From a virus, in IMG/VR virus record IMGVR_UViG_3300010935_000133, positions 1 through 47,367 of that record: a DNA stretch of 47,367 bases. The stretch is one strand, 5' to 3'. Both the position numbers and the translations under genes were made by a program. Below the pieces are notes generated by a model. It saw only the letters and a list, made by a program, of their open reading frames with translations. It was not told the origin of the DNA and made no database searches. Below are positions 15,535 to 46,757 of this stretch, in pieces (the first letter of the stretch is position 1; every line of letters starts with the position of its first letter).

Positions 15535-15559
15535 TAAAAAGGTAATAGGAGTAATTACT

Positions 15560-15922
15560 ATGTTTGAAAATGCAGCACGATTGAAATTACGGTTTAATAC
15601 ACCTGTAGGAAATTTGTCAGTAGAAGATTTATGGGATTTGCCACTAACCAAGCTTAACATTGTGGCACAAACCATTCACCGTGAAATCAAAAATGGTGAA
15701 GAAGAATCTTTCATCGCCACACCTACAAATAAAGATACAGTTTTGGTATTAAAGCTTGATATCCTGAAACATATCATTAAGGTTCGTATGGAAGAAAATG
15801 CAGCTAACTTGGCTTCAAAAGCAACACTTGCTAAGCGCGAAAAAATCTTGGGTCTTATTGAGAAAAAGAAAGATGAAGACTTGGGTGATTTATCGGTTGA
15901 AGAGTTGGAAGCACTTCTTTAA
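15560..15922 (+). CDS. Conserved small phage protein (M-F-E-N-A-A-R-L-K family)
   Basis: 120 residues, starting M-F-E-N-A-A-R-L-K-L-R-F and including G-N-L-S-V-E-D-L-W-D-L-P-L-T, a family widely distributed in phages and often found beside the type of large protein encoded just upstream. The rest is helical and charged, ending L-S-V-E-E-L-E-A-L-L. AGGAG precedes the ATG. The pairing suggests the two products act together. Function unknown. Confidence 0.8.
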   Translation: MFENAARLKLRFNTPVGNLSVEDLWDLPLTKLNIVAQTIHREIKNGEEESFIATPTNKDTVLVLKLDILKHIIKVRMEENAANLASKATLAKREKILGLIEKKKDEDLGDLSVEELEALL

Positions 15923-15940
15923 TTAGAGTGTAATTTTAAC

Positions 15941-15977
15941 AAACCCACGCCAAATTAATTTGGCGTGGGTTTTTTTT
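15941..15977 (+). terminator. Rho-independent terminator
   Basis: A perfect 16-bp palindromic arm (AAACCCACGCCAAATT with its complement) followed by a T run. It closes the 13513-15922 transcription unit. Confidence 0.93.
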
Positions 15978-15989
15978 GGAGTTTGTTAA

Positions 15990-16328
15990 ATGGATGTTAT
16001 GTATATAGAAAATGTTATTAAAGAGTTCATCGAGGATAATAATGATGAATTATTAGGTCAGATTGCATCAATAGATAATTTGCTTAGAATCCAAGATAAG
16101 TTCGATGTATGCCTAAAAGCTTATGAAGAACATGGTATTATGTTAATCACGGATAATAATGAGGAAATTCATAGTGTTCGATGTATGTATAAATCAGATG
16201 CAGGTGATGGTATAGTCGTGCACTTTGAAGTGAAAACAAAGAAATTGTTTATTGCTGAAGTAGAGAAAAAATCAGATAAGCGTATTGCTGAACAACTAAG
16301 TTTACCTTTTAGGTCAAAATCTATCTGA
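15990..16328 (+). CDS. Hypothetical protein
   Basis: 112 residues, acidic at the N-terminus, mixed alpha/beta (I-E-N-V-I-K-E-F-I, G-I-M-L-I-T-D-N-N, V-H-F-E-V-K-T-K-K-L-F). It has a TTTGGAGTTTGTTAA leader directly after the terminator. No family or motif recognised. A second, out-of-frame coding-like stretch begins within its last codons. Confidence 0.65.
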   Translation: MDVMYIENVIKEFIEDNNDELLGQIASIDNLLRIQDKFDVCLKAYEEHGIMLITDNNEEIHSVRCMYKSDAGDGIVVHFEVKTKKLFIAEVEKKSDKRIAEQLSLPFRSKSI

Positions 16329-16473
16329 CCTAAAGCTACCAACACACCACGAATTGTATGAAAAGCTTCTGCATAATGATGAAGATGCATTACATTTCTT
16401 TGATGGTATTCAAGTTGATGATTTTAGGGAAGATGCACAACAGCTTATTACTCATTGGATACTTTGGAAGTAG
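16300..16473 (+). pseudogene. Coding-like stretch without a clear start
   Basis: An open frame of 57 codons (L-P-T-H-H-E-L-Y-E-K-L-L, then H-F-F-D-G-I-Q-V-D-D-F, Q-L-I-T-H-W-I-L-W-K) has protein-like composition but no ATG; a TTG at 16354 has no good ribosome site. It may be the severed C-terminus of a gene or be reached by frameshifting from the gene at 15990. Confidence 0.4.
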
Positions 16474-31538: not shown

Positions 31539-32738
31539 TTACATACCTGTTACTAGGAATGTACGATAGAAGATGTTCTGACCTGCAGTACCACTTACAA
31601 ACGGATTGTGAGTAGTTGCATAACGTGTCTTCATGCCGATACGTGGTTGGAAATCTTCTTCTCCAACAGCTTTCACCATTTGCAATGGAACGTATGGACA
31701 GTAGTACAAACCTGAATCATACTGAGTTTTACCTTTGTAACCGATGATGATTTTGTCAGTAACCATGTAAGGGTCAATATAAACACGGAAACGACCTGCA
31801 AGAACACCAACAAACGATACACCAACACCATCTGCGCTTAGGTTACCTGCAACCAAGCTAGTGTCGATTGTAGAAGCCATATCCAAAGCAGCTACAATGT
31901 TTGTAGAAGTGATGATGAAGTTGCCTAAGCCACGACGTGACTGTGTAGCAATCAAACCAGCTTCACGGTTAATCTGTACCAACAGACCTTTATAACGTTC
32001 AACAGACCAACGACCATCTGCATCAGCGGTCAAGTTGAATGTACCCGCTACTGTAGCCAATGAAGCACCAACAACAGCCTGAGATTCAATCAACGCGATG
32101 ATTTCGCGATTCATTTCAGCAACAACTTCACCTGACAAGATGTTAGCCAATTCAGTTTCAGCATCCAAGCCATGAATTGCTTTCAAATCCTGAGCCAATT
32201 CAGTTGTGTACTTAGCTTTAAGTGCACGTGATTCAGCGGTTACAGTCTGTTTAACAATTTCCATGCTCATTTCTGGCCATGGATTAGTCTGTACAACAGG
32301 TGTAAGACCAACAGCAGCAGCATCAACTTGTGAATTAACACCCAACTGTTCAGCAGCAGCGGTAGCTTGCTTAGCAGCAAATGCAGCATCAGGCATAGTT
32401 GAAGTGAATGCTTCAGCACCTGTAGATGCATCGCCTGTATAGTGTGCTTTCATTGCGAAAACAAGACCAACAGGACCAGACATAGGCTGTACACCCAAAA
32501 TATCATTTGCTACCAATGTAGGCATTACACGGCGTACCATGCTTAGAATCACTGGGTCATATGCAGTCAAGTTAGCAGAAGACGTAGCTTCTTCCAATTG
32601 TGCTTTTTCAGTGTTTTCCAAAAGACGAATTGTGTTGTTACGCACAGTTACATCTTTAATTGCTTCGCAGCCTTCAGCCGTAATATGACCTGACCACTTT
32701 TCTTTAATTTCTTCTGACAACAGAGCCTGTTCAGCCAT
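31539..32738 (-). CDS. 23: gp23 major capsid protein
   Basis: 399 residues, shorter than T4 gp23 (521), similar to the compact capsid proteins of more distant T4-like phages. Diagnostic segments: Y-D-P-V-I-L-S-M-V-R-R-V-M-P, G-V-Q-P-M-S-G-P-V-G-L-V-F-A-M, and R-I-G-M-K-T-R-Y near the C-terminus. A gp21-type site (L-E-E followed by Ala) at residues 48-51 fits removal of the first 50 residues during prohead maturation. Own late promoter 45 nt upstream, strong terminator downstream. Confidence 0.97.
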   Translation of the reverse strand: MAEQALLSEEIKEKWSGHITAEGCEAIKDVTVRNNTIRLLENTEKAQLEEATSSANLTAYDPVILSMVRRVMPTLVANDILGVQPMSGPVGLVFAMKAHYTGDASTGAEAFTSTMPDAAFAAKQATAAAEQLGVNSQVDAAAVGLTPVVQTNPWPEMSMEIVKQTVTAESRALKAKYTTELAQDLKAIHGLDAETELANILSGEVVAEMNREIIALIESQAVVGASLATVAGTFNLTADADGRWSVERYKGLLVQINREAGLIATQSRRGLGNFIITSTNIVAALDMASTIDTSLVAGNLSADGVGVSFVGVLAGRFRVYIDPYMVTDKIIIGYKGKTQYDSGLYYCPYVPLQMVKAVGEEDFQPRIGMKTRYATTHNPFVSGTAGQNIFYRTFLVTGM

Positions 32739-32814: not shown

Positions 32815-33687
32815 TTACTCTTTGGTCGCAAGCATACGTAAAGACTGTTCACGTGCGGTTAAAGGTTTAGCATCTTCATCCAATACTACCTTCTTAACCA
32901 CTTCTTCAGACAAGGGTGCTTTTCCTTTGAAATAACTTTCTCTCAAAGTTGAAAGCTTTTCGCCAAATGCTTCAGCAGTATCAGCTTCAATACCTTCAGC
33001 AAGTTCCAAAAGTTTTTCTTTCTGTGTATCTGCCAAACCTTCAGACATAACAACAACTCTTAGTGCCTTTTCAGCTTCTGTTAATTCTTTAGTAGCAGTA
33101 ATAGATGCTTCGATAGACTCATCAAGCTTGCCTTCAAGTTCTTCAACTTTAGCAGCCAATGATTCAACCAAATCTTCTTTACCTTCAGGAATTGTTACAT
33201 AATGTGCTTTGAACAATTCAGCCATACCAGACATGAAAGATTCATCCATTTCAGCTTTAAGACCTGTAGAAATAGCTAGTTTGTTTTCTTCTAGCCATTT
33301 AGCTACAACAGTACCCAAATAGCCGTCTACTTTCTCAGACAACTCTTTAGTGATACGTGCTGTAGTATCTTCTTCCAAATATGCAACTTCAGCTTTAACA
33401 CGTGAAGCAACAGCAGATTCAAAGATAACCTTAGCTTTAGCCTGAAATGCTTCAGACAAATTTTCGCCTTCGCATAGAGCATTGATATCTTCGTCAATAG
33501 ACGCAACAACAACTTCAGCATCTTCTTTGATTTCGGTTTGTTCGATTAATCCAACTAGGTCACCTGATTCAAACTTAGCGGTGGCTTCGTCAAGAGTTAA
33601 TGTCACATCGCAATCGGTACATGTATGTGTAGACTTATCTTCGGATAAAGACATTGCTTCACTGCACTCGGGACATTGGTAGTCCAT
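32815..33687 (-). CDS. 22: gp22 prohead core scaffold, with N-terminal zinc ribbon
   Basis: 290 residues. The body is acidic and helical with the gp22 pattern N-L-S-E-A-F-Q-A-K-A-K-V-I-F-E-S-A-V, as expected for the main scaffold that shapes the head and is later degraded by gp21. The N-terminus is unusual: C5-x2-C8 and C23-x2-C26 form a zinc ribbon (C-P-E-C, C-T-D-C) not found in T4 gp22. Immediately upstream of gene 23 as in T4; the preceding gene 21 is 6 kb away. Confidence 0.88.
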   Translation of the reverse strand: MDYQCPECSEAMSLSEDKSTHTCTDCDVTLTLDEATAKFESGDLVGLIEQTEIKEDAEVVVASIDEDINALCEGENLSEAFQAKAKVIFESAVASRVKAEVAYLEEDTTARITKELSEKVDGYLGTVVAKWLEENKLAISTGLKAEMDESFMSGMAELFKAHYVTIPEGKEDLVESLAAKVEELEGKLDESIEASITATKELTEAEKALRVVVMSEGLADTQKEKLLELAEGIEADTAEAFGEKLSTLRESYFKGKAPLSEEVVKKVVLDEDAKPLTAREQSLRMLATKE

Positions 33688-35419: not shown

Positions 35420-35686
35420 ATGAGAATTATTGATTGGTTGATAGTTATAGTTGGTATTGGTGTATTAATTATTGGTAGTTGGTTTGTTATCAATATGGGT
35501 GGAAACTTATTTACATGGTTCACCCTAGAGCAACCTGACCATAAATATGAGATTGATACCTTCATGAGCAATTCAGAAGTGTATGAATTCACTCCTAAAT
35601 CAAATACTAATATGACATGTGTTATGTTAATGTTGGATTCAGGTGCATCGGTTGGTCTACAATGTTTTCCAAAGGTTTCTAAATGA
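35420..35686 (+). CDS. Small membrane protein upstream of the Mom-like gene
   Basis: 88 residues with one N-terminal membrane segment (I-V-I-V-G-I-G-V-L-I-I-G-S-W-F-V, residues 8-23) and a polar domain that would face the periplasm, with C67 and C82 that might pair. Overlaps the next start as ATGA. Function unknown. Confidence 0.65.
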   Translation: MRIIDWLIVIVGIGVLIIGSWFVINMGGNLFTWFTLEQPDHKYEIDTFMSNSEVYEFTPKSNTNMTCVMLMLDSGASVGLQCFPKVSK

Positions 35687-36561
35687 GTCTATTCGATGAA
35701 GCTGATATCAATAAGCCTTCAGTTTATAAAATTATAGCAGAAGCTAGATATAGTAGTGGTACCGTATCATTAGTTGGTGACGTATCACAAGAAGATGCTA
35801 ATATTACATATAAACCAAAACAATTTAAACCTACGAATAAGAATTATTCATGTTGCATAATAAAGGCAAATTTTGCGAATGATATTGTAAAGCAATTCCA
35901 CTATTCAGGTAAAGTTGTGTCAAATAGTATATTGCATTTGGGAATTTTCAATATTAATGATGAGTTAGTTGGTTGTCTTCAATTTGGATATCCTATGAAT
36001 GGTGAAAAAACAGCATCAAAGATTTCAAACCAAAACCCCATGTTAGAACTAAATCGTATGGTTATGACGGACGATGAACCTAGAAATGCAGAATCACAAG
36101 CAATATCTTTATCATTAAAATGGCTAAGGGCTAACACAAATATAAACTACATACTTAGTTTTTCTGATGGTAAAGAATCGAACTGCGGATACATATATCA
36201 AGCCACAAACTGGAAGTATTTAGGTTATGCCTTATCTAGTAGTTTTTATGATATAGATGGTGTTATAATGCATTCCGTATCAGTGTGGCATAAGTATAAA
36301 GAGAAACATAAATTGAGGGATAAATTAACCACCCATGAGATTATGGGAACAGAACACCAAAATATCAGCATTATCACAGCAAAACAACATATATATGTTA
36401 TGCCTGTTGTTAAGCGAGTATCATTTAAACATACCGAAAAAGCATATCCAAAAGTCGATACCGAAACGCCAATAATTAAACGACAATGGGTATATAAACA
36501 CGGTGTAAAGGATAATACTTTGATTGTGTATGATGACGCTAAAATGGAAAGTATACTATGA
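35683..36561 (+). CDS. Mom-like DNA adenine modification enzyme (GNAT-like)
   Basis: 292 residues. Residues about 65-200 follow the Mu Mom family closely: Q-F-H-Y-S-G-K-V, then L-V-G-C-L-Q-F-G-Y-P-M-N, L-E-L-N-R-M-V-M-T-D-D, N-A-E-S-Q-A-I-S, Y-I-L-S-F-S-D-G and G-Y-I-Y-Q-A-T-N-W-K-Y-L-G. Mom is a GNAT-fold enzyme that converts adenine to a carbamoylmethyl-type N6 derivative and shields phage DNA from many restriction enzymes. The extra N- and C-terminal parts here are not in Mu Mom. It belongs to a plus-strand unit inserted between late genes 21 and 22. No Com-like translational activator is seen; the downstream gene is a candidate partner. Confidence 0.88.
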   Translation: MSLFDEADINKPSVYKIIAEARYSSGTVSLVGDVSQEDANITYKPKQFKPTNKNYSCCIIKANFANDIVKQFHYSGKVVSNSILHLGIFNINDELVGCLQFGYPMNGEKTASKISNQNPMLELNRMVMTDDEPRNAESQAISLSLKWLRANTNINYILSFSDGKESNCGYIYQATNWKYLGYALSSSFYDIDGVIMHSVSVWHKYKEKHKLRDKLTTHEIMGTEHQNISIITAKQHIYVMPVVKRVSFKHTEKAYPKVDTETPIIKRQWVYKHGVKDNTLIVYDDAKMESIL

Positions 36562-36926
36562 TTGCTTGGCTAATGCGGAAAGTATTGGGAACTGTGGAAA
36601 CACAGTTCCCTAACGCTATACATAAAGATGATAGAGACCTATTGGATGTTCTTTATATCAATCAAGATATGATGCGCGAAACTATTAATATTATGCCCGA
36701 CCAAATACGTAAAATTTTGCATACTAAACAATCTTTCTTTGGAAAGTATGGTGATATATATTTTCTTGATACACTAGAAAGATTTAACTACAACCCACAA
36801 GTATTATTATATTGGTTATGTAATAGACCTAATCACAATTTGGATGAAGATGTATTAGCAATAGAAATAGAAATGATAAACAATAAAATAAAAGCTATTG
36901 TGGGTGTTCCTAAGCACTTATTATGA
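36558..36926 (+). CDS. Hypothetical protein coupled to the Mom-like gene
   Basis: 122 residues starting in the stop of the Mom-like gene (ATGA). Helical, with L-L-D-V-L-Y-I-N-Q-D-M-M and F-N-Y-N-P-Q-V-L-L-Y-W-L-C. A perfect 10-bp hairpin with a GAAA loop lies within codons 10-18. It converges with and overlaps the end of the 36921 gene by 6 nt. No family; a partner in DNA modification is inferred only from coupling. Confidence 0.65.
   Translation: MIAWLMRKVLGTVETQFPNAIHKDDRDLLDVLYINQDMMRETINIMPDQIRKILHTKQSFFGKYGDIYFLDTLERFNYNPQVLLYWLCNRPNHNLDEDVLAIEIEMINNKIKAIVGVPKHLL
36587..36610 (+). repeat. 10-bp GAAA-loop hairpin inside coding sequence
   Basis: GGGAACTGTG, GAAA, CACAGTTCCC, a perfect inverted repeat forming a very stable GNRA tetraloop hairpin about 30 nt after the start codon. 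No T run follows. Confidence 0.8.
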
Positions 36927-37319
36927 TAGTTGGTCTTTAATTTCCTGTACAGTAAATTCCACAATATCACGGAATCTACCTGTACTTTTTTCTAAGTCTT
37001 CAAGCTTATTCACAATACCAACTTTTTCAAACGACACAAGATGTTTACGTTTCTTGGCTCTACTTGAAGCATCAGCCGTAACCGTACCATCTAATTGAAC
37101 CTGAAAACCAAGATATTCAACCTTATTTTTACCAATAACAACATCAATAAACCTAAATTGTAATTCAGCACCACCAAATACACGTTGATACTTGGCTGTA
37201 TTGGTTTTAAACGACACACCAAGCGATTTTAGCATAGAAGATAGGTTAGTGCTAACTTTATGGACATCAACGGCTTCAAGGGCTACTGATTCATCTAGAT
37301 ATTTGATAAATGGTTTCAT
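36921..37319 (-). CDS. Capsid-targeted internal protein candidate
   Basis: 132 residues. The leader M-K-P-F-I-K-Y-L-D-E followed by Ser matches the T4 capsid-targeting pattern (M-K-T-Y-Q-E-F-I-x-E), with L-D-E as gp21 cut site after residue 10. The mature part is a small basic domain (V-F-G-G-A-E-L-Q-F-R-F-I-D-V-V; R-A-K-K-R-K-H) without a family I can name. Last gene of a run of leader-bearing genes; the upstream gene overlaps it as ATGA. Confidence 0.7.
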   Translation of the reverse strand: MKPFIKYLDESVALEAVDVHKVSTNLSSMLKSLGVSFKTNTAKYQRVFGGAELQFRFIDVVIGKNKVEYLGFQVQLDGTVTADASSRAKKRKHLVSFEKVGIVNKLEDLEKSTGRFRDIVEFTVQEIKDQLS

Positions 37320-38050
37320 GGTAATTTAACCTTTAGTTGTGTTAATTCTGTTCTAATATTTTGGTAAAATTCTGGTGTTATGGAGTACATTGCAACTTTA
37401 GTCAAAGACCGTTTAATAGGAAATCTATGCAAATCTTTATTGGTGCTTAGACCCAAAAAGAATTCTGCACCACTATGACGTTCAGCGAATTTCATTAATG
37501 ACTCATGATTAGTTTTATAAAACTTAGAAGTGAACAAGACCACACCATGTTCAATCTGATTGTGAATTGAAATCCAAACACCAACTTCAGCTTTATCACT
37601 ACCTGCAACAACAAAATTAGCACCATCTTCACTTTTTGTTATCACAAAAGGAACTTTCTTATTGAGTGCATTTAGCTTAGCCATAAACTCTTTACCATGC
37701 ACTTTAACATCATGACCTTCATTATAGCCTTGTTCGCGCATCCACATATGAATCATTTCATGGACGAGAATTGATTTATAATTCTCATCAGAAAATTCAA
37801 AGAATGTAGATAACTTGATAGAAATATGTTCAAACCCAGTGACTACACTTTTACCATTAATCTTCTTAGTATATGTATAAGAATGGTATGAACCTGCACG
37901 CTTCTTTGAATTTTCGGTTTCTAGCTTAATACTAGGCAACTCATTATTAAAAAGTGTGTGATTGAACTCCATAAACCACTTTGACACCTTAGCTAATAGT
38001 TCTGTACTTTTAGCTTCGGTTAGGTAGTCTTGAAAACTTTCCACCCTCAT
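37316..38050 (-). CDS. Capsid-targeted SprT-like zinc metalloprotease
   Basis: 244 residues. Leader M-R-V-E-S-F-Q-D-Y-L-T-E then Ala fits the targeting sequence with L-T-E as cut site. Residues 20-135 form a SprT-like domain: F-N-H-T-L-F-N-N-E-L-P start, H-E-M-I-H (97-101) metal site, and a third ligand at V-H-G-K-E-F (H118). The C-terminal 100 residues are unassigned. SprT/Spartan proteases cut DNA-bound proteins. If packaged and injected it could remove proteins from incoming DNA or attack host DNA-binding factors; this is inference. Coupled to genes on both sides. Confidence 0.82.
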   Translation of the reverse strand: MRVESFQDYLTEAKSTELLAKVSKWFMEFNHTLFNNELPSIKLETENSKKRAGSYHSYTYTKKINGKSVVTGFEHISIKLSTFFEFSDENYKSILVHEMIHMWMREQGYNEGHDVKVHGKEFMAKLNALNKKVPFVITKSEDGANFVVAGSDKAEVGVWISIHNQIEHGVVLFTSKFYKTNHESLMKFAERHSGAEFFLGLSTNKDLHRFPIKRSLTKVAMYSITPEFYQNIRTELTQLKVKLP

Positions 38051-38052
38051 TA

Positions 38053-38289
38053 TTATACACTTGTCAACTTATTCAATTCTTTCATTGTATTTTTCATCTT
38101 AGTAAACGCTATAGAAAAAGACCTCATATCTTCATTATCAGCAGCAACGTTCATAGTGGATGAAAGCTGTACAATCAGTCCAGCAGCAGTTTGAATCTTA
38201 TCGGTATTACGACCATCACCATAATATTCAAACTGCTTATCGGTAGACTTGGTTACTGCTTCAGTTAGGTAGTCTTGGTAAGTTTTCAT
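38053..38289 (-). CDS. Capsid-targeted internal protein candidate
   Basis: 78 residues. Leader M-K-T-Y-Q-D-Y-L-T-E then Ala, nearly identical to the T4 internal protein leader, cut expected after E10. The mature part is about 68 residues, helical and charged (F-T-K-M-K-N-T-M-K-E-L-N-K-L), the size of T4 IPI/IPII. A GATAAATA box lies 6 nt before the ATG, inside the previous gene. Confidence 0.75.
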   Translation of the reverse strand: MKTYQDYLTEAVTKSTDKQFEYYGDGRNTDKIQTAAGLIVQLSSTMNVAADNEDMRSFSIAFTKMKNTMKELNKLTSV

Positions 38290-38474
38290 TAGATGTATTT
38301 ATCTAATTCTTTCTCAAGGTCTTTCTTGCTAACATGAGGGAACTTCTTAAGTGCGGCTTTAAGGTAGTGACCATACATATCTTGACCATCATCTTCAGAA
38401 TCCATACCCTGTAGAACAAATGATGCTGCAGGTGATTTTTTAAATTCTGTTATAAACTGTTTAAATGTTTTCAT
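38289..38474 (-). CDS. Capsid-targeted internal protein candidate
   Basis: 61 residues. Leader M-K-T-F-K-Q-F-I-T-E then Phe, cut expected after E10, leaving a 51-residue basic helical peptide (H-Y-L-K-A-A-L-K-K-F-P; K-K-D-L-E-K-E-L-D-K-Y-I). The G-H-Y-L-K-A-A-L-K motif also appears in other small T4-like head proteins. GAGGAA lies upstream. End touches the next ATG. Confidence 0.72.
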   Translation of the reverse strand: MKTFKQFITEFKKSPAASFVLQGMDSEDDGQDMYGHYLKAALKKFPHVSKKDLEKELDKYI

Positions 38475-38476
38475 AC

Positions 38477-38545
38477 TTAAGATTCCTCGAATATAGTAGT
38501 ATTAAAACCACTATTAAGATTTTGTGCAAAGGATTTGCTATTCAT
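38477..38545 (-). CDS. Possible 22-residue peptide
   Basis: M-N-S-K-S-F-A-Q-N-L-N-S-G-F-N then T-T-I-F-E-E-S. Its ATG overlaps the stop of the 39144-38542 gene as ATGA, and it fills most of the gap to the next gene. Support is only positional. Confidence 0.25.
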   Translation of the reverse strand: MNSKSFAQNLNSGFNTTIFEES

Positions 38546-39144
38546 AGACTCATCCATAATTTTTGCGCATCATCAGAACTTAGATTTTGCTTCATGATAG
38601 CTTTCAGGTTCTGAAGAATTTCATACTTATACTTACCCAAACCTTCAGGCATAGAACGTTCAAGGTCTTGGATTTCAGATATTTTACTAAGAATCTTAAC
38701 ATACTTAGTAGCACCAAGATACTTAGCAAGACGTAATGCAGCTTCAGTATGGTCATTATGATGAGTTAGGTCAGCTAACTCAGCAGCCATACCATCTACA
38801 GACTGTACTTTCTTTTCATTTATGATTTCTTCGGTAACAGCCTTACGAAGGGTAGTAATACCATCAACACCATCAACAGGCATCAATACACTATCAAGTT
38901 CTTTCGATACATCACGTAGTTCACCTTTCGCACCAAATCGAACCTGCATAACTCTTTTACCATCAATCATAGCAGAACCTGTATCTTTCAAGGTGAACTT
39001 AGACTTCTTGATAGCGTTCTCGATGTCCTTAATCATCCGTGTGCCATCTTTCGATGCAGGAACACGTACAAGGAAGGTATTAGCTACAGAACCTGGTGTG
39101 AGCGTTAAGTGTACTTCATTTATGTATGTTGAAAAGCTTTTCAT
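38542..39144 (-). CDS. Capsid-targeted internal protein candidate
   Basis: 200 residues. Leader M-K-S-F-S-T-Y-I-N-E then Val, I-N-E as cut site. The mature part has an N-terminal alpha/beta half (T-F-L-V-R-V-P-A-S-K; M-Q-V-R-F-G-A-K-G-E) and a helical C-terminal half (L-R-L-A-K-Y-L-G-A-T-K-Y-V-K-I-L). It has no catalytic motif I recognise. A GATAAATA late-type box lies 20 nt upstream with a GGAGAA ribosome site between. Confidence 0.7.
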   Translation of the reverse strand: MKSFSTYINEVHLTLTPGSVANTFLVRVPASKDGTRMIKDIENAIKKSKFTLKDTGSAMIDGKRVMQVRFGAKGELRDVSKELDSVLMPVDGVDGITTLRKAVTEEIINEKKVQSVDGMAAELADLTHHNDHTEAALRLAKYLGATKYVKILSKISEIQDLERSMPEGLGKYKYEILQNLKAIMKQNLSSDDAQKLWMSL

Positions 39145-39163
39145 GTGTTATTCTCCATGTTAC

Positions 39164-39171
39164 TATTTATC
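39164..39171 (-). promoter_or_regulatory. Late-type box for the 39144 gene
   Basis: GATAAATA on the minus strand, 19 nt before the ATG, followed by ATGGAGAATAACAC. Confidence 0.5.
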
Positions 39172-39173
39172 AA

Positions 39174-39836
39174 TTATTTTATAGTGCGTAAAAGGCTTCT
39201 AATGTTATGGGTTTTATCATCCAATGACCATAACCTTTTATCAAAATCTTTATCATAATTACCTTGATGCAGCACAACGTTTCTATCTACATATTCGCCT
39301 GTATCTATATCAACAATATCAACAACAATATCATTTGATTTAGACAACCTAGACCATAAGGCTCTTGCTCCAAAATATTGTGTCTTGTCTCCAAGAATAT
39401 TATAACCTTCTACTTGAGCAAGGTAATTGTACAAAACTATAGCTAACGAATTGTTTCTAAAATCCTTATCAACAATAACTAAGTCGATATTGACGACATA
39501 TTTTCTATCAAACTGATACTGAACCTTTTTATCCCTTGATGCATCCAAATACACGATGTTGACAAATTTATGTATTGTTTCAACCCCACCTTTTATGGCT
39601 TTGTCACGGTGTATCCAATAACCCAATCTAAATTTAGGTTCAGTCTTATGTTTATACAAAGAAAGTGTTTTCCCTTGTGTAGTCAAAAACACTTTCTCCA
39701 CCAACTTAAAGGCTTTCAGGAACTCTCGTTTGCTTGATGCATCTGCACGTAGAGTTGGCTTCTTTGGGTCACTACCAACCCAATCACCTTCAACAGCTTG
39801 TGCTTGTTCAGCTATAAATTCCTTAAAAGTTTTCAT
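39174..39836 (-). CDS. Capsid-targeted GNAT-like acetyltransferase
   Basis: 220 residues. Leader M-K-T-F-K-E-F-I-A-E then Gln, almost the same as T4 IPI (M-K-T-Y-Q-E-F-I-A-E). The second half reads as a GNAT fold: V-N-I-D-L-V-I-V-D-K-D-F-R-N-N-S-L-A (acetyl-CoA loop region), V-L-Y-N-Y-L-A-Q-V, then Y-F-G-A-R-A-L-W-S-R-L-S, as in phage GNAT-like proteins where R-G-x-G-L-A..L-Y..G-A..L-W is conserved. The usual R-G-x-G is degraded to R-N-N-S, so activity needs testing. The leader before the ATG ends GAACGGAG as in the promoter cassettes. Confidence 0.72.
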   Translation of the reverse strand: MKTFKEFIAEQAQAVEGDWVGSDPKKPTLRADASSKREFLKAFKLVEKVFLTTQGKTLSLYKHKTEPKFRLGYWIHRDKAIKGGVETIHKFVNIVYLDASRDKKVQYQFDRKYVVNIDLVIVDKDFRNNSLAIVLYNYLAQVEGYNILGDKTQYFGARALWSRLSKSNDIVVDIVDIDTGEYVDRNVVLHQGNYDKDFDKRLWSLDDKTHNIRSLLRTIK

Positions 39837-39893
39837 AATTTTCTCCGTTCATAATTACGCACAATACATGTATATTATGAACAAGCAAGAAAT

Positions 39894-41651
39894 TTATAGA
39901 CCTTTAATAAAATTCTCAAACATATTAGCTTGGTGCTGTACAACTCTAGCAGCAGGCATACGCTTAATCTGTTTCATGATGCGTTCAGCCTTTTCTTCAT
40001 TATGTTCCCATACGAAGCCTTTACATTCCATGATGCCATTAACGAATGCAGAAGGTGCGCTTGGGTCAGCAACCACATCAACACAAACAAGACCGAAATC
40101 TTCATTTACGATATTAGCTTTAGCACCTTCAGTAACAGTACCCATACCACGTGTAGAAACACCCATGGACACGCCATCTTCAACAAGACCACGAACAAGG
40201 TTACCCATAGGTGTGTTCAGAACCTTAGCCTTGCCTATGTAGTCGCTTCCTGACTCTACAAGTGAGGTAATGAGGTGACTAGCGCGTTCAGGATTGACTG
40301 TGGGTGAATTTCCTGTTAAGTAAGCCTTACCATTATCTCTAATATAGAAATTACCTTGTTCAGTGGTAATACAATATGCGCCTTTGGCTGGATGAGGAAC
40401 TTTATCTATAAAAAACTTATGTCTAGTATCCAAGAATATGCCGCTAGTTCTGCTAATATTTAGCACATACAATATAGCCTTTTTATGGGTTTCAATTAAA
40501 TGCCCTGCAAACATGTAGTCTGGAAGACCAACAGGGTCGCTGATTGTGATGTTGCCACTAAGCCCACATTTAATCACACACTCCTGTAAATCGTCCACCA
40601 ATTGTTTAGATGTGCTAAAAATATTTAGTAATTTTCCTACATTAGAATCACTACCATTAATAACTTTTCTACCATCCCCATAACCAAACCATTCAACCAA
40701 TGACATTAGATGGTTACTTGATAGAGATTTAATGTCTGTCGGGATATACTTATTATAACAATTACCTAGTTTACTTAAATACTCATGAATACGTCTATCA
40801 GAAAATGTCCACGATATTAAATTACTTTCCCTAAAGGATGAGTATCTATTTACTTTGATTTCGCTAGGGAATTTGGATAGCATATCATCTACCATATCAG
40901 ATACATCACCTTCATTCTGACAAATGCTTACATCATATTTATCTTTTGAAATATGACCTTCTGCCAAATAAAAACCTAGAAACTTAACAAATGTATCAGT
41001 TGGTATGATTAAGTCTTGAGTGACATCATTCTTATACTTGTATAATTGATTCGCATCAACAACAACACCAGGTATAGTGATAAATTCTCTATCATCACCA
41101 ACAAACGAACACTGTTTTATTATTTTAGAGTGCCTTTGTACTGAGGTGTGTCTATTATCATACAACTCCTGAGCAGTTACCACCTCGATTGAACCATTGC
41201 GCCGCTCAACATAAAACCGATGATTTGGTGTCACTTTACTATCAATCTGACGACCACATATATGGATGCAGTCTCCAGCATAGTCATTATCTTTAGTGAT
41301 GTCAGTAATATCGGAGTTTACTAAATTACCATTCTTATCCATACTCATAACACTTTCGCCTATGGTTAAGTCAGCAAACTTCTTCCATCCGTCGGAGGTC
41401 AATACGTCAAAATCGCTATTAAAATAACACTGTGGGTGGTTTAACTCACCTAGAGCACGTCTAGTCTGTATATGAGACTCATTGTATCGTTTAACTTCTC
41501 GACCCAAAACAGCTTTAGGGTAGATACGACCATTATGGTTCTTTTGGTCAGCCTGTGCAAAAATACCTTCAATAAAGAGATTCTTTTTACCATCTTTACC
41601 TTCTTCAAGATAAGAGCGTGTTTCGAGTACATGTTCTGTAATTAATAGCAT
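39894..41651 (-). CDS. 21: gp21 prohead protease interrupted by an intein
   Basis: 585 residues encoded; extein parts are residues 1-74 and 449-585, together 211, the size of T4 gp21 (212). N-extein: L-F-I-E-G-I-F-A-Q-A-D-Q-K-N-H-N-G-R and A-L-G-E-L-N-H-P with the catalytic His. C-extein: V-N-P-E-R-A-S-H-L-I, G-V-S-M-G-V-S-T-R-G-M-G with the catalytic Ser, and V-V-A-D-P-S-A-P-S-A. gp21 degrades the core and cuts capsid and internal proteins after (L/I)-x-E in the prohead. The intein sits right behind the His motif, so the protease should be inactive until splicing. Flanked by genes for its likely substrates. Confidence 0.95.
   Translation of the reverse strand: MLLITEHVLETRSYLEEGKDGKKNLFIEGIFAQADQKNHNGRIYPKAVLGREVKRYNESHIQTRRALGELNHPQCYFNSDFDVLTSDGWKKFADLTIGESVMSMDKNGNLVNSDITDITKDNDYAGDCIHICGRQIDSKVTPNHRFYVERRNGSIEVVTAQELYDNRHTSVQRHSKIIKQCSFVGDDREFITIPGVVVDANQLYKYKNDVTQDLIIPTDTFVKFLGFYLAEGHISKDKYDVSICQNEGDVSDMVDDMLSKFPSEIKVNRYSSFRESNLISWTFSDRRIHEYLSKLGNCYNKYIPTDIKSLSSNHLMSLVEWFGYGDGRKVINGSDSNVGKLLNIFSTSKQLVDDLQECVIKCGLSGNITISDPVGLPDYMFAGHLIETHKKAILYVLNISRTSGIFLDTRHKFFIDKVPHPAKGAYCITTEQGNFYIRDNGKAYLTGNSPTVNPERASHLITSLVESGSDYIGKAKVLNTPMGNLVRGLVEDGVSMGVSTRGMGTVTEGAKANIVNEDFGLVCVDVVADPSAPSAFVNGIMECKGFVWEHNEEKAERIMKQIKRMPAARVVQHQANMFENFIKGL
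40308..41429 (-). mobile_element. Intein with LAGLIDADG homing endonuclease in gp21
   Basis: 374 residues from C75 to N448 of the precursor. Block A starts C-Y-F-N-S-D-F-D-V-L-T-S-D-G-W; block B has V-T-P-N-H-R-F-Y; the DOD endonuclease motifs are F-L-G-F-Y-L-A-E-G-H-I and L-V-E-W-F-G-Y-G-D-G-R; the end is Y-I-R-D-N-G-K-A-Y-L-T-G-N with Ser as the +1 residue. The penultimate residue is Gly rather than the usual His. The endonuclease motifs look intact, so the element is probably still mobile. Confidence 0.95.
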
Positions 41652-41652
41652 A

Positions 41653-41886
41653 TTAGTTGTTTGCCTCGTTGCTAATCAATATAGAATTATGTGTTACTTT
41701 CTTAATGTCGCCTACACTGAAGGTGAACTCATCGCCATCAGCATCAACAGCAACATAAACATCACCACCAGTATGCTTATCAACTTTCATAGAAACAACT
41801 TTACCTACATCATGACCAAACTCGATAACACGTTTGCCTATGGATGGGTCTTTAGCTTCAACTATAAACTGTTTGAATGTTTTCAT
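41653..41886 (-). CDS. Capsid-targeted internal protein candidate
   Basis: 77 residues. Leader M-K-T-F-K-Q-F-I-V-E then Ala, cut after E10. The mature 67 residues look like a small beta barrel (V-G-K-V-V-S-M-K-V-D; V-Y-V-A-V-D-A-D-G-D-E-F). Own late promoter at 41933-41940. It ends 1 nt before the gp21 start, so it is cotranscribed with its likely protease. Confidence 0.75.
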   Translation of the reverse strand: MKTFKQFIVEAKDPSIGKRVIEFGHDVGKVVSMKVDKHTGGDVYVAVDADGDEFTFSVGDIKKVTHNSILISNEANN

Positions 41887-41932
41887 GTTTCTTAACTCCG
41901 TAAGTTACGTTTTCACATAACCTATTTATATG

Positions 41933-41940
41933 TAGAAGGA
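41933..41940 (-). promoter_or_regulatory. Late promoter box upstream of the 41886 gene and gp21
   Basis: TATAAATA on the minus strand, 46 nt before the 41886 start. Confidence 0.85.
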
Positions 41941-41951
41941 TTTTGGTGCTT

Positions 41952-42839
41952 TTACTTGTAGTCTGTTGCTAAACCAACATCAACATTCTTCTTGCCATCA
42001 ACAGTTGCAGTAACTTTACCTGACTTATTATCAACCTTTACAGCACCTACAGTTTTGGCATTAACCTTCTTCTTAATCTTAGCAACAATATCTTTAGCTT
42101 TTTGACCTGTTAATACAGTAGAATAGTTACCATTCTTGATATCGTTTGAATATGATGCACCTGCAGAGCCAGCCCAATAGTCTTCAAATGCAGCTTCAGT
42201 CATAGACTCAATCAGGAAAGGATTATTCCATTCGCCAACACTCACCTTTACGTAGAAGCCAACATCAAAATAATCAGACTGCACATCAGAATTATCATAG
42301 TTTGTTTTTTGGATTTGCTCAAACAATTCAACCAAAAAATTATGAGTTTTTCCTTTAGCTTTACCGTGTTTATCATACTGATGGATTTGAACATAATCTT
42401 TAGCCACACCATTATTATGAGGTATACCTGCCAAATACTCATTGACAATATCAAAAGGTGCTGACTTGATATTAACAAGGAACTGTGAACCATCACGTAC
42501 ACCAAATGTAGCCTTGACCTTATACTTCTTCATGATAGGTTTCAATCTAGAAACAATCTTTTTCTTTTCATCTTGGGTAATGTATGCTTCATTAACAGCA
42601 CCCTCACCTATTAACTTAGAAAACTTCTTCTTGTCAGCAGCGTTTTCAGCACCAACAATAGCATAGAAAGTATTCATGTCCTTCTTGTCGATAGCAATAA
42701 GAGCAGCATCAATTTCATCACTGTACTCTTTTTCGATTCGGCTAGGGTCATTGAAACCACCAACCACACCAAATACCTTAACGATATCTGCTCTAGTTAC
42801 TTTCTTTGCTTCTTTTAGGTATGTTAGAAATGATTGCAT
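41952..42839 (-). CDS. Capsid-targeted internal protein candidate, large
   Basis: 295 residues. Leader M-Q-S-F-L-T-Y-L-K-E then Ala, a divergent targeting sequence with L-K-E as cut site. A further site-like L-I-G-E occurs near residue 78. The mature part is alpha/beta (K-A-T-F-G-V-R-D-G-S-Q-F-L-V-N-I) with a C-terminal beta-rich Lys/Val/Gly domain (K-V-D-N-K-S-G-K-V-T-A-T-V-D-G). No family recognised. Confidence 0.68.
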   Translation of the reverse strand: MQSFLTYLKEAKKVTRADIVKVFGVVGGFNDPSRIEKEYSDEIDAALIAIDKKDMNTFYAIVGAENAADKKKFSKLIGEGAVNEAYITQDEKKKIVSRLKPIMKKYKVKATFGVRDGSQFLVNIKSAPFDIVNEYLAGIPHNNGVAKDYVQIHQYDKHGKAKGKTHNFLVELFEQIQKTNYDNSDVQSDYFDVGFYVKVSVGEWNNPFLIESMTEAAFEDYWAGSAGASYSNDIKNGNYSTVLTGQKAKDIVAKIKKKVNAKTVGAVKVDNKSGKVTATVDGKKNVDVGLATDYK

Positions 42840-42882
42840 GGTTGTCCCTTATTTTAAGATATGTACATATTTACGCATATGA

Positions 42883-43227
42883 TTATAATTCCTTCAGTAA
42901 AGCACCTAATGTGCCTTTCTGACCAATGAATTTTTTAGCATTTTCTTCTGTAGCAGTCTTGATACCAACAGCGCGGAATAAAGACATCACCTTACGGATA
43001 GCATCAGCGTCAACAGCCTCTTTTAAGGGCTTAAAGGTCTTCACAGCAGCACTAACATCAGATGCCATGTAATAACCTTCTGTGGGCTGTTTAAGAGCAC
43101 TTAGTGACTCATTAGCAGCTATCATGTTGGCTTCGCTATCGAAACCTGCATCATAGAACATACGAAGTGCAGATTTTTTAGAAATTCCAGTCTTAGCTTC
43201 AGTTATAAATTGCTCAAATGTTTTCAA
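42883..43227 (-). CDS. Capsid-targeted internal protein candidate, TTG start
   Basis: 114 residues if started at TTG 43227, which gives M-K-T-F-E-Q-F-I-T-E then Ala, the exact targeting leader, with AGGAG 8 nt upstream. The longer ATG frame from 43257 would bury this leader and is rejected. The mature part has two similar helical domains (S-A-L-R-M-F-Y-D-A-G-F-D; V-M-S-L-F-R-A-V-G-I-K). Function unknown. Confidence 0.75.
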   Translation of the reverse strand: MKTFEQFITEAKTGISKKSALRMFYDAGFDSEANMIAANESLSALKQPTEGYYMASDVSAAVKTFKPLKEAVDADAIRKVMSLFRAVGIKTATEENAKKFIGQKGTLGALLKEL

Positions 43228-43228
43228 C

Positions 43229-43978
43229 TTAGCTTCTCCTAGTCTGACGTTTACCACTTGAAGTCTTACCCAATTTACCTAAACGCTTAGCTTTGGCTTT
43301 ATACTTCTTGAAGCTTGCAGTGCGTCTAAATTTCTTTTGGCTAAGTTTAATCTTAGCTTTATTTTTGCGATACTTATTTTTACGCTTAAGTTTGTCAAGC
43401 GGTTTAGTACGCTTAAGTAATCTAGCTTCTTGTAAGAATAATTCAACAGTTGGCTCTACACGATAATGACCGAGTTTCAAGAACAAATCCCAATCTTTAT
43501 TAGATAATGAATAACCTAATGCAGATTCAGCATCTTTCTTGTTTTTAATTTCAATATTTTCTTTGTTGTTTTTGACAACATACATAGCACCTTTCTTAGC
43601 ACCATCAATGTTAGATGTAGTGGATTCATCGACAGAATCAATCTCATCATATTCATATTCATCATCATCAGAATCGACATCGAAAGGGATATCCTGAGCA
43701 TCAACCAAGTCAAAGAATGCATCAATGACTGATTGCTCATTGGTATCATCAATAACCATAGTGCCTTCACCATCTTCAACTTCAATGGAATATGTAAGCT
43801 TTACAGAATCAGCAAGATTTCTAAGAATAGCTAGGTCATCCTCTTCATCAGGTTCAACCTCAACACCTTCCAAGATATCATCTTTAGCAAGTGCCAATGC
43901 TTCGTGTGCTTTTTCAGTTAGAGCTTTTGATACTGAATCAAAAAATTTACTAGGTGATGTGAAATCAAAATCACTCAT
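43229..43978 (-). CDS. Prohead core protein (gp67/gp68-like)
   Basis: 249 residues with a strongly acidic middle (V-E-P-D-E-E-D-D; D-S-D-D-D-E-Y-E-Y-D-E) and a very basic C-terminus (K-L-K-R-K-N-K-Y-R-K-N-K-A-K; F-K-K-Y-K-A-K-A-K-R). The Y-R-K-N-K-A-K..K-K-F-R-x-T-A-x-F-K-K-Y end is typical of minor core proteins in the gene 68 position of T4-like phages. Likely gp21 sites: L-T-E near residue 22 and I-L-E near 37. It would be shredded in head maturation. Lies between the 45209 gene and the leader-bearing genes. Confidence 0.75.
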   Translation of the reverse strand: MSDFDFTSPSKFFDSVSKALTEKAHEALALAKDDILEGVEVEPDEEDDLAILRNLADSVKLTYSIEVEDGEGTMVIDDTNEQSVIDAFFDLVDAQDIPFDVDSDDDEYEYDEIDSVDESTTSNIDGAKKGAMYVVKNNKENIEIKNKKDAESALGYSLSNKDWDLFLKLGHYRVEPTVELFLQEARLLKRTKPLDKLKRKNKYRKNKAKIKLSQKKFRRTASFKKYKAKAKRLGKLGKTSSGKRQTRRS

Positions 43979-43982
43979 AATT

Positions 43983-45209
43983 TTACCCTTCCTTTCTTAC
44001 TGTGATTTTTACCTTTGCAAACAACTTCTTAAGCTTAGGAATATCACTTTCAACTACGCCTGATAAATCATATTCGATAGGCTCTTTAATAGTTGCACCT
44101 GATACACCAATTTGCAATTTGTTCTCGATATACCGCCATACATCACCACCATACTCTTTATCGGCAGCTTTAATCATAGCTTCAGTAGGTGATACTTTAG
44201 CTTCAACATAGCGATAATCTTTAACGTCATCTTCCTTAACCGATTTACCATCAAGGATAGCCTGAAGCTTTTTAGCTGTATCAGGGTGATAACGAGTATA
44301 ACCACTATTTAGCCAAGTGTTAGTACCACTATGAATCAACTCTCTACCGATTGCGGTTTCGATTTTAAACTCTTTCTTGCCGTATGGGTAGTTTAGGTAT
44401 GAAATGTACTTGTCATCAATCTTAGTGATAAAGATTCCATCAGGTGAACTAGATGCACCCATATAGACGAACATATTAGGTTTAAGTGCCATAGAGACAC
44501 CATTAAGACCTCTCACGCCTGAACCAGTAATAGCTTGGAAACGAGATTCATCAATAATATCTTCTGAAAAGATGGTACGCATTTTTCCTTTGAAACCTGC
44601 AGAATCCCATAGGTCAGAAGCTTCTTTAGAATATCTATCCAAGTTTTTAGACCTACGTAACTTATCAAACTCATCATCAAGTTTTTTGACTGATGCAGTT
44701 TGCTTTGGTGTCCATGCACTTGCTTCATCAAGAGATTCATTAACAGCAGCCTCAGAACCGTTCAACTGGAAGATTAAGTTATTAATAACCTTTAAAGTCT
44801 GCTCATCAGATAATTTATCAACAACCTGTTCAGCAATATTAACACCTAGACCTCTACCACTTAACCCTGTTCCCATACCAATAAAACCTTTAAGCTTTTT
44901 GCGGAAATTAAGCATACCTTTCTTGGATACTGTTTTAGGTGTGCCAAAGTCAGCTTTGATGTCTCGTACTTTCCAAATACCACGTGTATCACCTGCGGTA
45001 GTTAATAAGTCATGAAATGCATCAATCGACTTTTTAGCCCATCCTTTAGTCTGAACTACCTTAACTGTTTTAGATACAACATCAACAGCTTCATCTAAAA
45101 CACTAAAGTTACTAACCGCATCATGCGCCTTAGCATCCAAAACAGATTTAACCTGTTCATGCAATTTATGTGGACTACCTAAGCAGTCAGTTAAATCAAT
45201 TTTAAGCAT
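43983..45209 (-). CDS. Probable head/core-associated protein, hypothetical
   Basis: 408 residues from ATG 45209 with GGAG 6 nt upstream; the TTG at 45221 is rejected. No family recognised. The first 45 residues (L-H-E-Q-V-K-S-V-L-D-A-K-A-H) resemble the start of the next core protein, and two L-D-E followed by Ala sites (near residues 40 and 160) fit gp21 cleavage. A Gly-rich segment G-F-I-G-M-G-T-G-L-S-G-R-G-L lies in the middle. Own late box at 45235-45242. A packaged, processed protein is likely but unproven. Confidence 0.65.
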   Translation of the reverse strand: MLKIDLTDCLGSPHKLHEQVKSVLDAKAHDAVSNFSVLDEAVDVVSKTVKVVQTKGWAKKSIDAFHDLLTTAGDTRGIWKVRDIKADFGTPKTVSKKGMLNFRKKLKGFIGMGTGLSGRGLGVNIAEQVVDKLSDEQTLKVINNLIFQLNGSEAAVNESLDEASAWTPKQTASVKKLDDEFDKLRRSKNLDRYSKEASDLWDSAGFKGKMRTIFSEDIIDESRFQAITGSGVRGLNGVSMALKPNMFVYMGASSSPDGIFITKIDDKYISYLNYPYGKKEFKIETAIGRELIHSGTNTWLNSGYTRYHPDTAKKLQAILDGKSVKEDDVKDYRYVEAKVSPTEAMIKAADKEYGGDVWRYIENKLQIGVSGATIKEPIEYDLSGVVESDIPKLKKLFAKVKITVRKEG

Positions 45210-45234: not shown

Positions 45235-45242
45235 TATTTATA
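45235..45242 (-). promoter_or_regulatory. Late promoter box of the 45209 gene
   Basis: TATAAATA on the minus strand, 25 nt before the chosen ATG with a ribosome site between. Confidence 0.75.
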
Positions 45243-45269: not shown

Positions 45270-46757
45270 TTACGCATCTTCATCTTCTACGCCTATGCCA
45301 TTCTTCTTGTCTTCTTCAATCTCTTTATCCATTTCCTTAATTTCATCATCAGACATCATAAGAATATTCTTCTTAACATAGCTTGATGAGAAATACTTGC
45401 CAACATATTCATCAATATTACGCAATGACTCTAAACGTGTTGCCATAACTTCAGCAGCTTTCATTTCAGTGAAATGTGAATCACTATTAAATATATAATG
45501 AACATCAGCAAGTAGTTCGGCAACCTCTTCAGCGGTCATGATGTTTTTATATACCAACTGACGTTTTAGTGTCTCAGAAAACAGGTTAGCAAACTTCTTA
45601 CGTAGCTTGGCAATATACTTACCAAATTTGATTTCGTCACGTGTAATCTCATTCGAACCACCAAGACTAAATGCTGATTCAGTTTCCATACGTGATGCAG
45701 GAATTTTAAGTGCTCTATACAACTTCTTATTGAAGTATAAAACATCATCCATTTCACCTAAGTTCGTAGCTGCAGGTAATGTATCAATTTCGGTGGTATT
45801 AGAGCCATTTTTACGTGGAATGAAGATATCTTCAACCATAGACTTAATATGCACGTTATCTTTAACAGAACCACTCTTAGAATCATAAGCAGTTTTGTTC
45901 TTATGATTAGAGATAACAGAGTTCATATACTGTTCTGCACGCTTCTTAGGTAGGTTACCAATGTCAATATAGAACACACGTCTTTCAGGTGCTCTTGTGA
46001 TACGGTAAACAACAACCGAATCTTCCAATGCAACCAACTGATTGAAAGGACGAATAATAGTATGTAGATGTGAAATGATGGTCTTGCCATCTTCGCTCAA
46101 AAGACCGCTATGATTATAAACAATAGCTTGTTGGTCAATCTTTAATGCTTTGTTCTGACTTGATAATTTACTAGCAGGGTCATTGTATACAAAATAGGTC
46201 TTAATCTCAGATACTTCTTCAACACCCGAAGATGCATTCTTAACCTTGATTGCATCAGATACTTTAGTGATATGGGATGGATGCAATTTACGCATTTCCA
46301 CAATACCATCACCAGTCTTATCTTTATTAACCATGGCATGATAGTAAAGCTTTCCGTCAACAAACCATTGTCTGAAAAGTTCATCACCAACTTGGTTAAA
46401 TTTTAATAGTCTCAATACCGTTTCGAACTCATCTTTAACTTTCTCTTTAATGGAATCTGAAAGTTCTGTTTCGCTTAGGTCGATTTCAACTGGTGATGCA
46501 TTCTGCTCAAATACGATAGCATCATTAATAATCTCATCTAAAGCAATATCGACATCAGAATTACCTGCCATTTCACGATATTTCTTGATAAGGTCACCAT
46601 TAGTCTTAAACTTAGGGTCTAGGTCATAACCAATGGTATACGTACCGCCAGCAGAAATAGAACCATCTGAAGTATCAGGCTCAGCAAATGACTTAACTTT
46701 TTTATCAATTTCAGGCTCTATAGGCTTTTTGTTGAAAGAGTATCCAAATATTTCCAT
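45270..46757 (-). CDS. 20: gp20 portal vertex protein
   Basis: 495 residues (T4: 524). Diagnostic segments: K-L-Y-Y-H-A-M-V-N, I-I-R-P-F-N-Q-L-V-A-L-E-D-S-V-V-V-Y-R, R-A-P-E-R-R-V-F-Y-I-D-I-G-N-L-P and I-D-T-L-P-A-A-T-N-L-G-E-M. It forms the 12-mer through which DNA enters and leaves, and nucleates prohead assembly. The CATAAATA box lies just 5 nt before the ATG and no ribosome site is seen, so the mRNA may be leaderless or the gene may rely on readthrough from gene 19. Confidence 0.96.
   Translation of the reverse strand: MEIFGYSFNKKPIEPEIDKKVKSFAEPDTSDGSISAGGTYTIGYDLDPKFKTNGDLIKKYREMAGNSDVDIALDEIINDAIVFEQNASPVEIDLSETELSDSIKEKVKDEFETVLRLLKFNQVGDELFRQWFVDGKLYYHAMVNKDKTGDGIVEMRKLHPSHITKVSDAIKVKNASSGVEEVSEIKTYFVYNDPASKLSSQNKALKIDQQAIVYNHSGLLSEDGKTIISHLHTIIRPFNQLVALEDSVVVYRITRAPERRVFYIDIGNLPKKRAEQYMNSVISNHKNKTAYDSKSGSVKDNVHIKSMVEDIFIPRKNGSNTTEIDTLPAATNLGEMDDVLYFNKKLYRALKIPASRMETESAFSLGGSNEITRDEIKFGKYIAKLRKKFANLFSETLKRQLVYKNIMTAEEVAELLADVHYIFNSDSHFTEMKAAEVMATRLESLRNIDEYVGKYFSSSYVKKNILMMSDDEIKEMDKEIEEDKKNGIGVEDEDA

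Follow-up and report, generated by a model that had tools for sequence, protein, structure and literature searches.

A predicted internal-protein locus of nine leader-bearing genes around the gp21 protease of an uncultured T4-superfamily phage

Introduction

Why would nine adjacent genes with dissimilar products open with the same ten-residue design, and what would become of proteins marked in this way? The question is raised by positions 36921-43227 of the IMG/VR virus record IMGVR_UViG_3300010935_000133, the whole of which (47,367 nucleotides; hereafter the window) was analyzed. This 47.4-kb record belongs to a T4-superfamily phage, in which the gp20 portal, gp19 tube, gp21, gp22 and gp23 are all recognizable, and the nine genes lie on the minus strand to either side of gp21, the prohead protease. 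Published work on T4 shows that a protein with a capsid-targeting sequence (CTS) is incorporated into the prohead during assembly, processed there by gp21 and later injected. The T4 proteins Ip1-3 are injected inhibitors of GmrSD enzymes (PMC12373910), and IPIII without its leader is functional when made in the host (PMC9391042).

The locus is best read as an internal-protein locus whose products would be packaged by their leader, cut by gp21 and injected, a reading given a rough probability of 0.78. It draws on the leader itself, conservation at the positions tested in T4, the cognate protease, the late-promoter context, the unrelated cargos (the parts downstream of the leader) and a difference in cargo at the leader boundary. 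That the nine proteins are packaged, cut and injected, and what their cargos act on, are predictions. Each leader gene would be transcribed late; the leader would dock on the prohead core via positions 4 and 7, building the protein into the prohead, and gp21 would cut after Glu10 within an (I/L)-x-E motif. The mature cargo would then stay with the DNA and enter the cell at infection, where it would most likely blunt first-contact defenses or remodel host proteins before phage gene expression. New cargo would be gained when recombination leaves the leader in place and exchanges the sequence behind it.

A shared ten-residue leader

The nine genes are listed below. Remarks on gene position refer to the nearest relative, contig L113, which is the same contig as L001 and L040 and whose portal and gp21 are 84% and 86% identical to those of the window.

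42883-43227, minus strand: leader gene 1, 114 residues, LKTFEQFITE (TTG start); an unrelated leader gene occupies the same position in L113
41952-42839, minus strand: leader gene 2, 295 residues, MQSFLTYLKE; residues 85-219 phrog_10415, LPD29-like
41653-41886, minus strand: leader gene 3, 77 residues, MKTFKQFIVE; directly before gp21
39174-39836, minus strand: leader gene 4, 220 residues, MKTFKEFIAE; a 59% identical leader gene lies in the same place in L113
38542-39144, minus strand: leader gene 5, 200 residues, MKSFSTYINE; weak relative in L113, across gp21
38289-38474, minus strand: leader gene 6, 61 residues, MKTFKQFITE
38053-38289, minus strand: leader gene 7, 78 residues, MKTYQDYLTE; leader DNA 84% identical to that of gene 8
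37316-38044, minus strand: leader gene 8, 242 residues, VESFQDYLTE (GTG start); SprT-like zinc metalloprotease
36921-37319, minus strand: leader gene 9, 132 residues, MKPFIKYLDE

All nine conform to M-x-x-[FY]-x-x-[FY]-[IL]-x-E. The original prediction had described nine minus-strand genes with an aromatic residue at about position 4, Ile or Leu at 8 and Glu at 10, each of which is indeed present in 9/9, as is an aromatic residue at position 7 that had gone unnoticed. Position 7 matters because mutagenesis of T4 IPIII showed residues 4 and 7 to be the main determinants of targeting, and residues 8 and 10 those of processing (PMC9026906); all four of these residues are kept in every one of the nine leaders. 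Glu10 had further been said to be usually followed by Ala, which holds for five genes and fails for four, the residues in genes 1 to 9 being A, A, A, Q, V, F, A, A and S. The register of the leader is exact even where the start codon is not ATG, namely TTG at 43227 in gene 1 and GTG at 38044, rather than ATG at 38050, in the SprT gene 8; both of these starts differ from that of the longest open reading frame.

AT-rich late genes could favor starts of the MKT type, and the common N-terminus might on that account reflect chance, composition or a preference in translation starts. An order-3 Markov null model, by which a chance origin was rejected, produced a mean of 0.03 leader-bearing reading frames and at most one in 60 replicates, against the nine observed. 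The four fixed positions are spread across ten codons with synonymous variation, a scan of the whole record for the pattern returned nine matches that are exactly these genes, with no control matches, and the leader core occurs at only 1 in 13,571 internal positions. An origin by chance is accordingly barely credible. T-even-style repeats 5' of each gene were not seen, the most recurrent repeats of the region being the leaders themselves.

Applied to 30 records, the pattern finds few matches in most T4-like genomes and five or six in RB32. These counts are lower bounds, since atypical leaders such as that of RB32 Ip5 (MKTFKEFATK) are missed. In T4 the matches are ipII, ipIII and one further canonical site. 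The earlier remark that T4 has only a few needs the qualification that its T-even relatives have many ip genes, at least 10 being reported (PMC12373910).

The gp21 protease and its intein

The candidate processing enzyme is encoded in the middle of the cluster.

39894-41651, minus strand: gp21 prohead protease (Peptidase_S77, 5.1e-35), with an intein at residues 75-448

The protease retains the GELNHP and GVSxRGxG motifs. The intein, which gives Hint and LAGLIDADG matches, is inserted three residues past the histidine of GELNHP (GELNHPQ, then intein). Because it lies inside gp21, splicing is required for the protease to form, and protease activity would depend on it. The gp21 of L113 has no intein there.

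Nine unrelated cargos

The nine mature parts show no significant similarity to one another (best E about 0.27), and seven of the nine leader proteins have a mature isoelectric point (pI) above 8. Gene 8 is the most readily assigned. It matches the SprT-like family PF10263 (E=5e-12; 46.1 bits against a cut-off of 25.6) and carries a zinc-binding HEMIH motif at residue 95 and a downstream HGKEF at 116, which bears out the proposal of a likely protease among the cargos. A PDB search with gene 8 returned nothing useful, an IMG/VR search found no relatives, and among named phages there were only weak partial matches.

The domain in gene 2 is encoded elsewhere by a gene of its own that has no leader, in Sinorhizobium phage phiN3, Methylophilales phage Melnitz and two viral contigs. 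Gene 2 has no direct match to the profile of LPD29 (PF18847), which is a polyvalent-protein domain (PMC5512222), and the connection runs instead through a homologue in one of these contigs, L261, which is 29% identical (3e-10) and itself matches LPD29 at 3.7e-8. A candidate second gp21 site, LIGE-G, is found at residue 79 of gene 2, immediately ahead of the LPD29-like domain (42183-42587, minus strand), and cleavage there might free the cargo on its own.

An acetyltransferase had also been placed among the cargos in the original prediction, and this assignment is unproven: searches of Pfam and PDB profiles with gene 4 gave no hit, the PHROG families that it matches have no known function, and it is acetyltransferase-like at best. 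Its leader-plus-cargo pair recurs in L113 (59% identity) and, remotely, in L198; an IMG/VR search found no relatives, and named phages yielded no more than a partial match, in Campylobacter phages. Gene 5 found no relatives in the named-phage search. The AlphaFold models of genes 4 and 5 (predicted local distance difference test scores of 38 and 48) did not reach a quality suitable for fold searching.

Could the nine be old paralogues, copies of one duplicated leader gene that have diverged past recognition? The adjacent genes 7 and 8, with leader DNA 84% identical, would fit such a history, and paralogous leader genes are known elsewhere, including four related ones in contig L205. Against it stand the lack of significant similarity among the mature parts, the membership of the SprT protease and the LPD29-like domain in separate known families, and the occurrence of the latter domain without any leader. 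Common descent of the nine is thus improbable, and their acquisition as separate cargos behind a shared leader is preferred.

A cargo difference at the leader boundary

L113 has leader genes of its own around gp21, which permits a comparison of corresponding junctions. At the junction between the gp68-like gene and the first leader, the two upstream 150-base blocks have DNA identities of 0.62 and 0.73 and the 30-base leader one of 0.77; past the leader the value drops to 0.47, the mean for shuffled sequence. Identity collapses exactly where the cargo starts, leaving the same position and the same leader with a different cargo. At the second junction, between gp21 and gene 4, the leader is retained together with its cargo, and the weak relative of gene 5 is located on the opposite side of gp21. 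All of this is expected if cargo is exchanged behind a fixed leader, in whichever direction the change ran. Together with the leaderless versions of the gene 2 domain, replacement of cargo at the leader boundary supports the modular locus that had been suggested. Such a natural difference in cargo at an identical position would be useful for studying how proteins of this kind are gained.

L113 also has a single open reading frame (15084-16418) with one leader at residue 1 and another at residue 266, which looks like a fusion of two leader genes.

Leader proteins in other contigs

A scan of IMG/VR with a stricter form of the pattern returned at least 120 matching stretches, among them contigs with clusters of three to seven leader genes. 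Clustering by cargo sorted the sample of 163 distinct leader proteins, nine of them from the window, into 86 clusters. As the leader was the search key, its presence is given by construction, and what the scan reveals is how diverse the cargos are. A head gene was detectable in the fetched stretch at only 9 of 103 such loci, and T4-superfamily membership is readable at those only.

Acb1 and SAM lyase are known anti-defense families, the activity of the latter being anti-restriction. A leader-bearing Acb1-like (anti-CBASS) protein is encoded close after gp23 at L251:8603-9130 (Pfam 4e-12; PDB 7t26, 2e-7), and the RB32 protein 57B, which is similar to it, lies beside ip genes and has no leader. 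The representative of a 13-member leader cluster (L163:1441-2151 and 12 proteins from other loci) matches the SAM lyase family PF23780 at 2.4e-17. Leader-bearing ADP-ribosyltransferases and one GNAT also occur among the sampled cargos. At L191:3442-9422 there are seven leader genes, six of them directly adjoining gp19-like genes and close to gp20, and this battery includes an ART-PolyVal match and a member of the GNAT-containing cluster. Very few of about 80 portal relatives and 79 other gp23 relatives (41-49% identity) have any leaders near their head genes, which marks the leader cluster as lineage-specific as far as sampled.

Whether the leader serves across T4-superfamily phages as a general, portable delivery tag, such that any gene behind it, enzymes included, becomes a virion-delivered effector, is a broader proposal judged slightly better than even. 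If so, leader scans would list injected counter-defense proteins, with Acb1-like and SAM-lyase-like proteins already among the matches, and the window would hold nine of them as a dedicated set, grouped around their activating protease.

The four tandem leader genes of L205 (7002-10326) are mutually related and carry YRG motifs, with an ADP-ribosyltransferase-like look; the one that was scanned had no Pfam match.

Head-gene context: assembly parts or injected proteins?

The features that frame the cluster are the following.

45270-46757, minus strand: gp20 portal protein, by family match
43983-45209, minus strand: protein at the gp67 position, 412 residues, about 180 residues longer than its L113 counterpart; assigned by position
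43229-43978, minus strand: gp68-like core protein, with an acidic N-terminal half and a very basic C-terminal tail
32815-33687, minus strand: gp22 scaffold, by family match
31539-32738, minus strand: gp23 major capsid protein, by family match
45235-45242, minus strand: T4-type late promoter TATAAATA, exact match, before the gp67-position gene
41923-41930, minus strand: T4-type late promoter TATAAATA, exact match, before gene 3 and gp21

The minus-strand order is gp19, gp20, the gp67-position gene, the gp68-like gene, three leader genes, gp21 and six leader genes, after which come a plus-strand gene block and then gp22 and gp23. The head operon is interrupted by the leader genes. In five named relatives the gap between gp20 and gp21 is 0.6-1.6 kb, and gp22 follows 9-71 bases after gp21; in this record the gp20-gp21 gap is 3.6 kb and that between gp21 and gp22 is 6.2 kb. 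Exact copies of TATAAATA are also present upstream of gp19, gp22 and gp23, and the leader genes are predicted to be expressed late with the head genes, in the same operon as gp21. With the four IPIII residues kept, gp21 amid the cluster and late promoters upstream, capsid-targeting leaders cut by gp21, as first proposed, are the best reading of the shared N-terminus.

The gp23 of this phage is less than 60% identical to that of every named phage and at most about 46% identical among the best listed; no phage record was hit when the region was compared by megablast, and a search of named phages found no relatives of the gp67-position protein. The gp68-like protein, for which a family search gave no matches, resembles RB32 gp68 in architecture only. 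No secure alignment with RB32 gp23 was obtained at the gp23 cleavage site, which was left unused as evidence.

The same context would suit proteins that are mainly parts of the prohead core or its assembly, akin to additional gp67 or gp68, which would be packaged and cut with no role in the next host. The leader genes sit between the gp68-like gene and gp22 in the head operon, would be expressed late and are in several cases very small, and T4 IPIII mutants show mild head-assembly defects (PMC9026906). Such a role is hard to reconcile with the presence of different cargos in close relatives that share 84-86% identity in their core head genes, with an SprT-like enzyme as the product of gene 8, or with anti-defense enzymes among the leader-bearing proteins of other contigs. 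It is therefore considered unlikely for the set as a whole, if less so than common descent.

Several points nonetheless weigh against an internal-protein locus. For this phage, that the nine proteins enter the virion and are cut behind residue 10 is a prediction from sequence. None of the nine cargos matches a known anti-defense protein, six have no assignment, and that of gene 4 is likewise unconfirmed. Small, acidic leader proteins like that of gene 3 (mature pI 5.4) may instead belong to the core. The cargo difference was seen in one contig, L113, and in the near-identical fragment L039, by a comparison without direction.

Relation to known delivery systems

The closest counterparts of the predicted internal-protein locus are IPI, IPII and IPIII of T4 and the T-even ip loci (such as Ip4, Ip7, Ip9 and Ip5 in RB32), which have the same ten-residue leader and the same protease family. 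Both there and here the proteins are mostly small and basic, and a shared leader precedes unrelated mature parts; the T-even loci are also polymorphic between close relatives (PMC12373910), as is this one. The canonical ip genes of T4 and RB32 lie away from gp21, whereas the nine are clustered around it, and no similarity in cargo was found between the T4-type internal proteins and the nine, one of which is an SprT metalloprotease. The T4 ADP-ribosyltransferase Alt offers a parallel as an enzyme that travels in the head, undergoes trimming by gp21 and reaches the cell together with the DNA (PMC9026906). No ADP-ribosyltransferase was recognized in the window, leader-bearing ones being found in other contigs such as L191.

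Phage P1 packages several anti-restriction proteins of its Dar system in the head, and the N-terminal packaging signal of DarB can direct a reporter (PMC9024508). The Dar proteins, however, have no recognizable common leader, and the P1 scheme of head assembly is different; DarA, DarB, DdrA, DdrB, Hdf and Ulx were named by no family scan of the window proteins, no direct comparison having been made. Polyvalent proteins of phages and conjugative elements share the LPD29-like, ADP-ribosyltransferase and zinc-peptidase themes and are thought to be delivered with DNA (PMC5512222). They join 2-15 domains in one polypeptide, whereas the locus consists of nine separate proteins of 61-295 residues, each with its own leader, and does not have the polyvalent architecture.

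The idea of a portable leader is already published, the CTS having been described as a possible evolutionary route by which T4-like phages incorporate various proteins (PMC9026906), and portability is established for T4. As far as the searched literature shows, what is new is the size of the battery (nine) and its place around gp21, the occurrence of a metalloprotease and an LPD29-like domain among the cargos, the change of cargo found at a leader boundary, and the breadth of leader cargos in uncultured phages, including known anti-defense enzyme families. Should the predicted delivery hold, the leader would be an address readable in sequence that predicts which proteins reach the cell ahead of any phage gene expression, and would allow candidate first-strike counter-defense proteins of uncultured phages to be listed cheaply. 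The predicted capsid-delivered metalloprotease would be a testable new type of effector.

A neighboring DNA modification gene

The leader cluster is adjoined by a Mom-like DNA modification gene (phrog_1384, 1.3e-50) at 35683-36561 on the plus strand. As T4 injected proteins protect modified DNA, this pairing may be meaningful.

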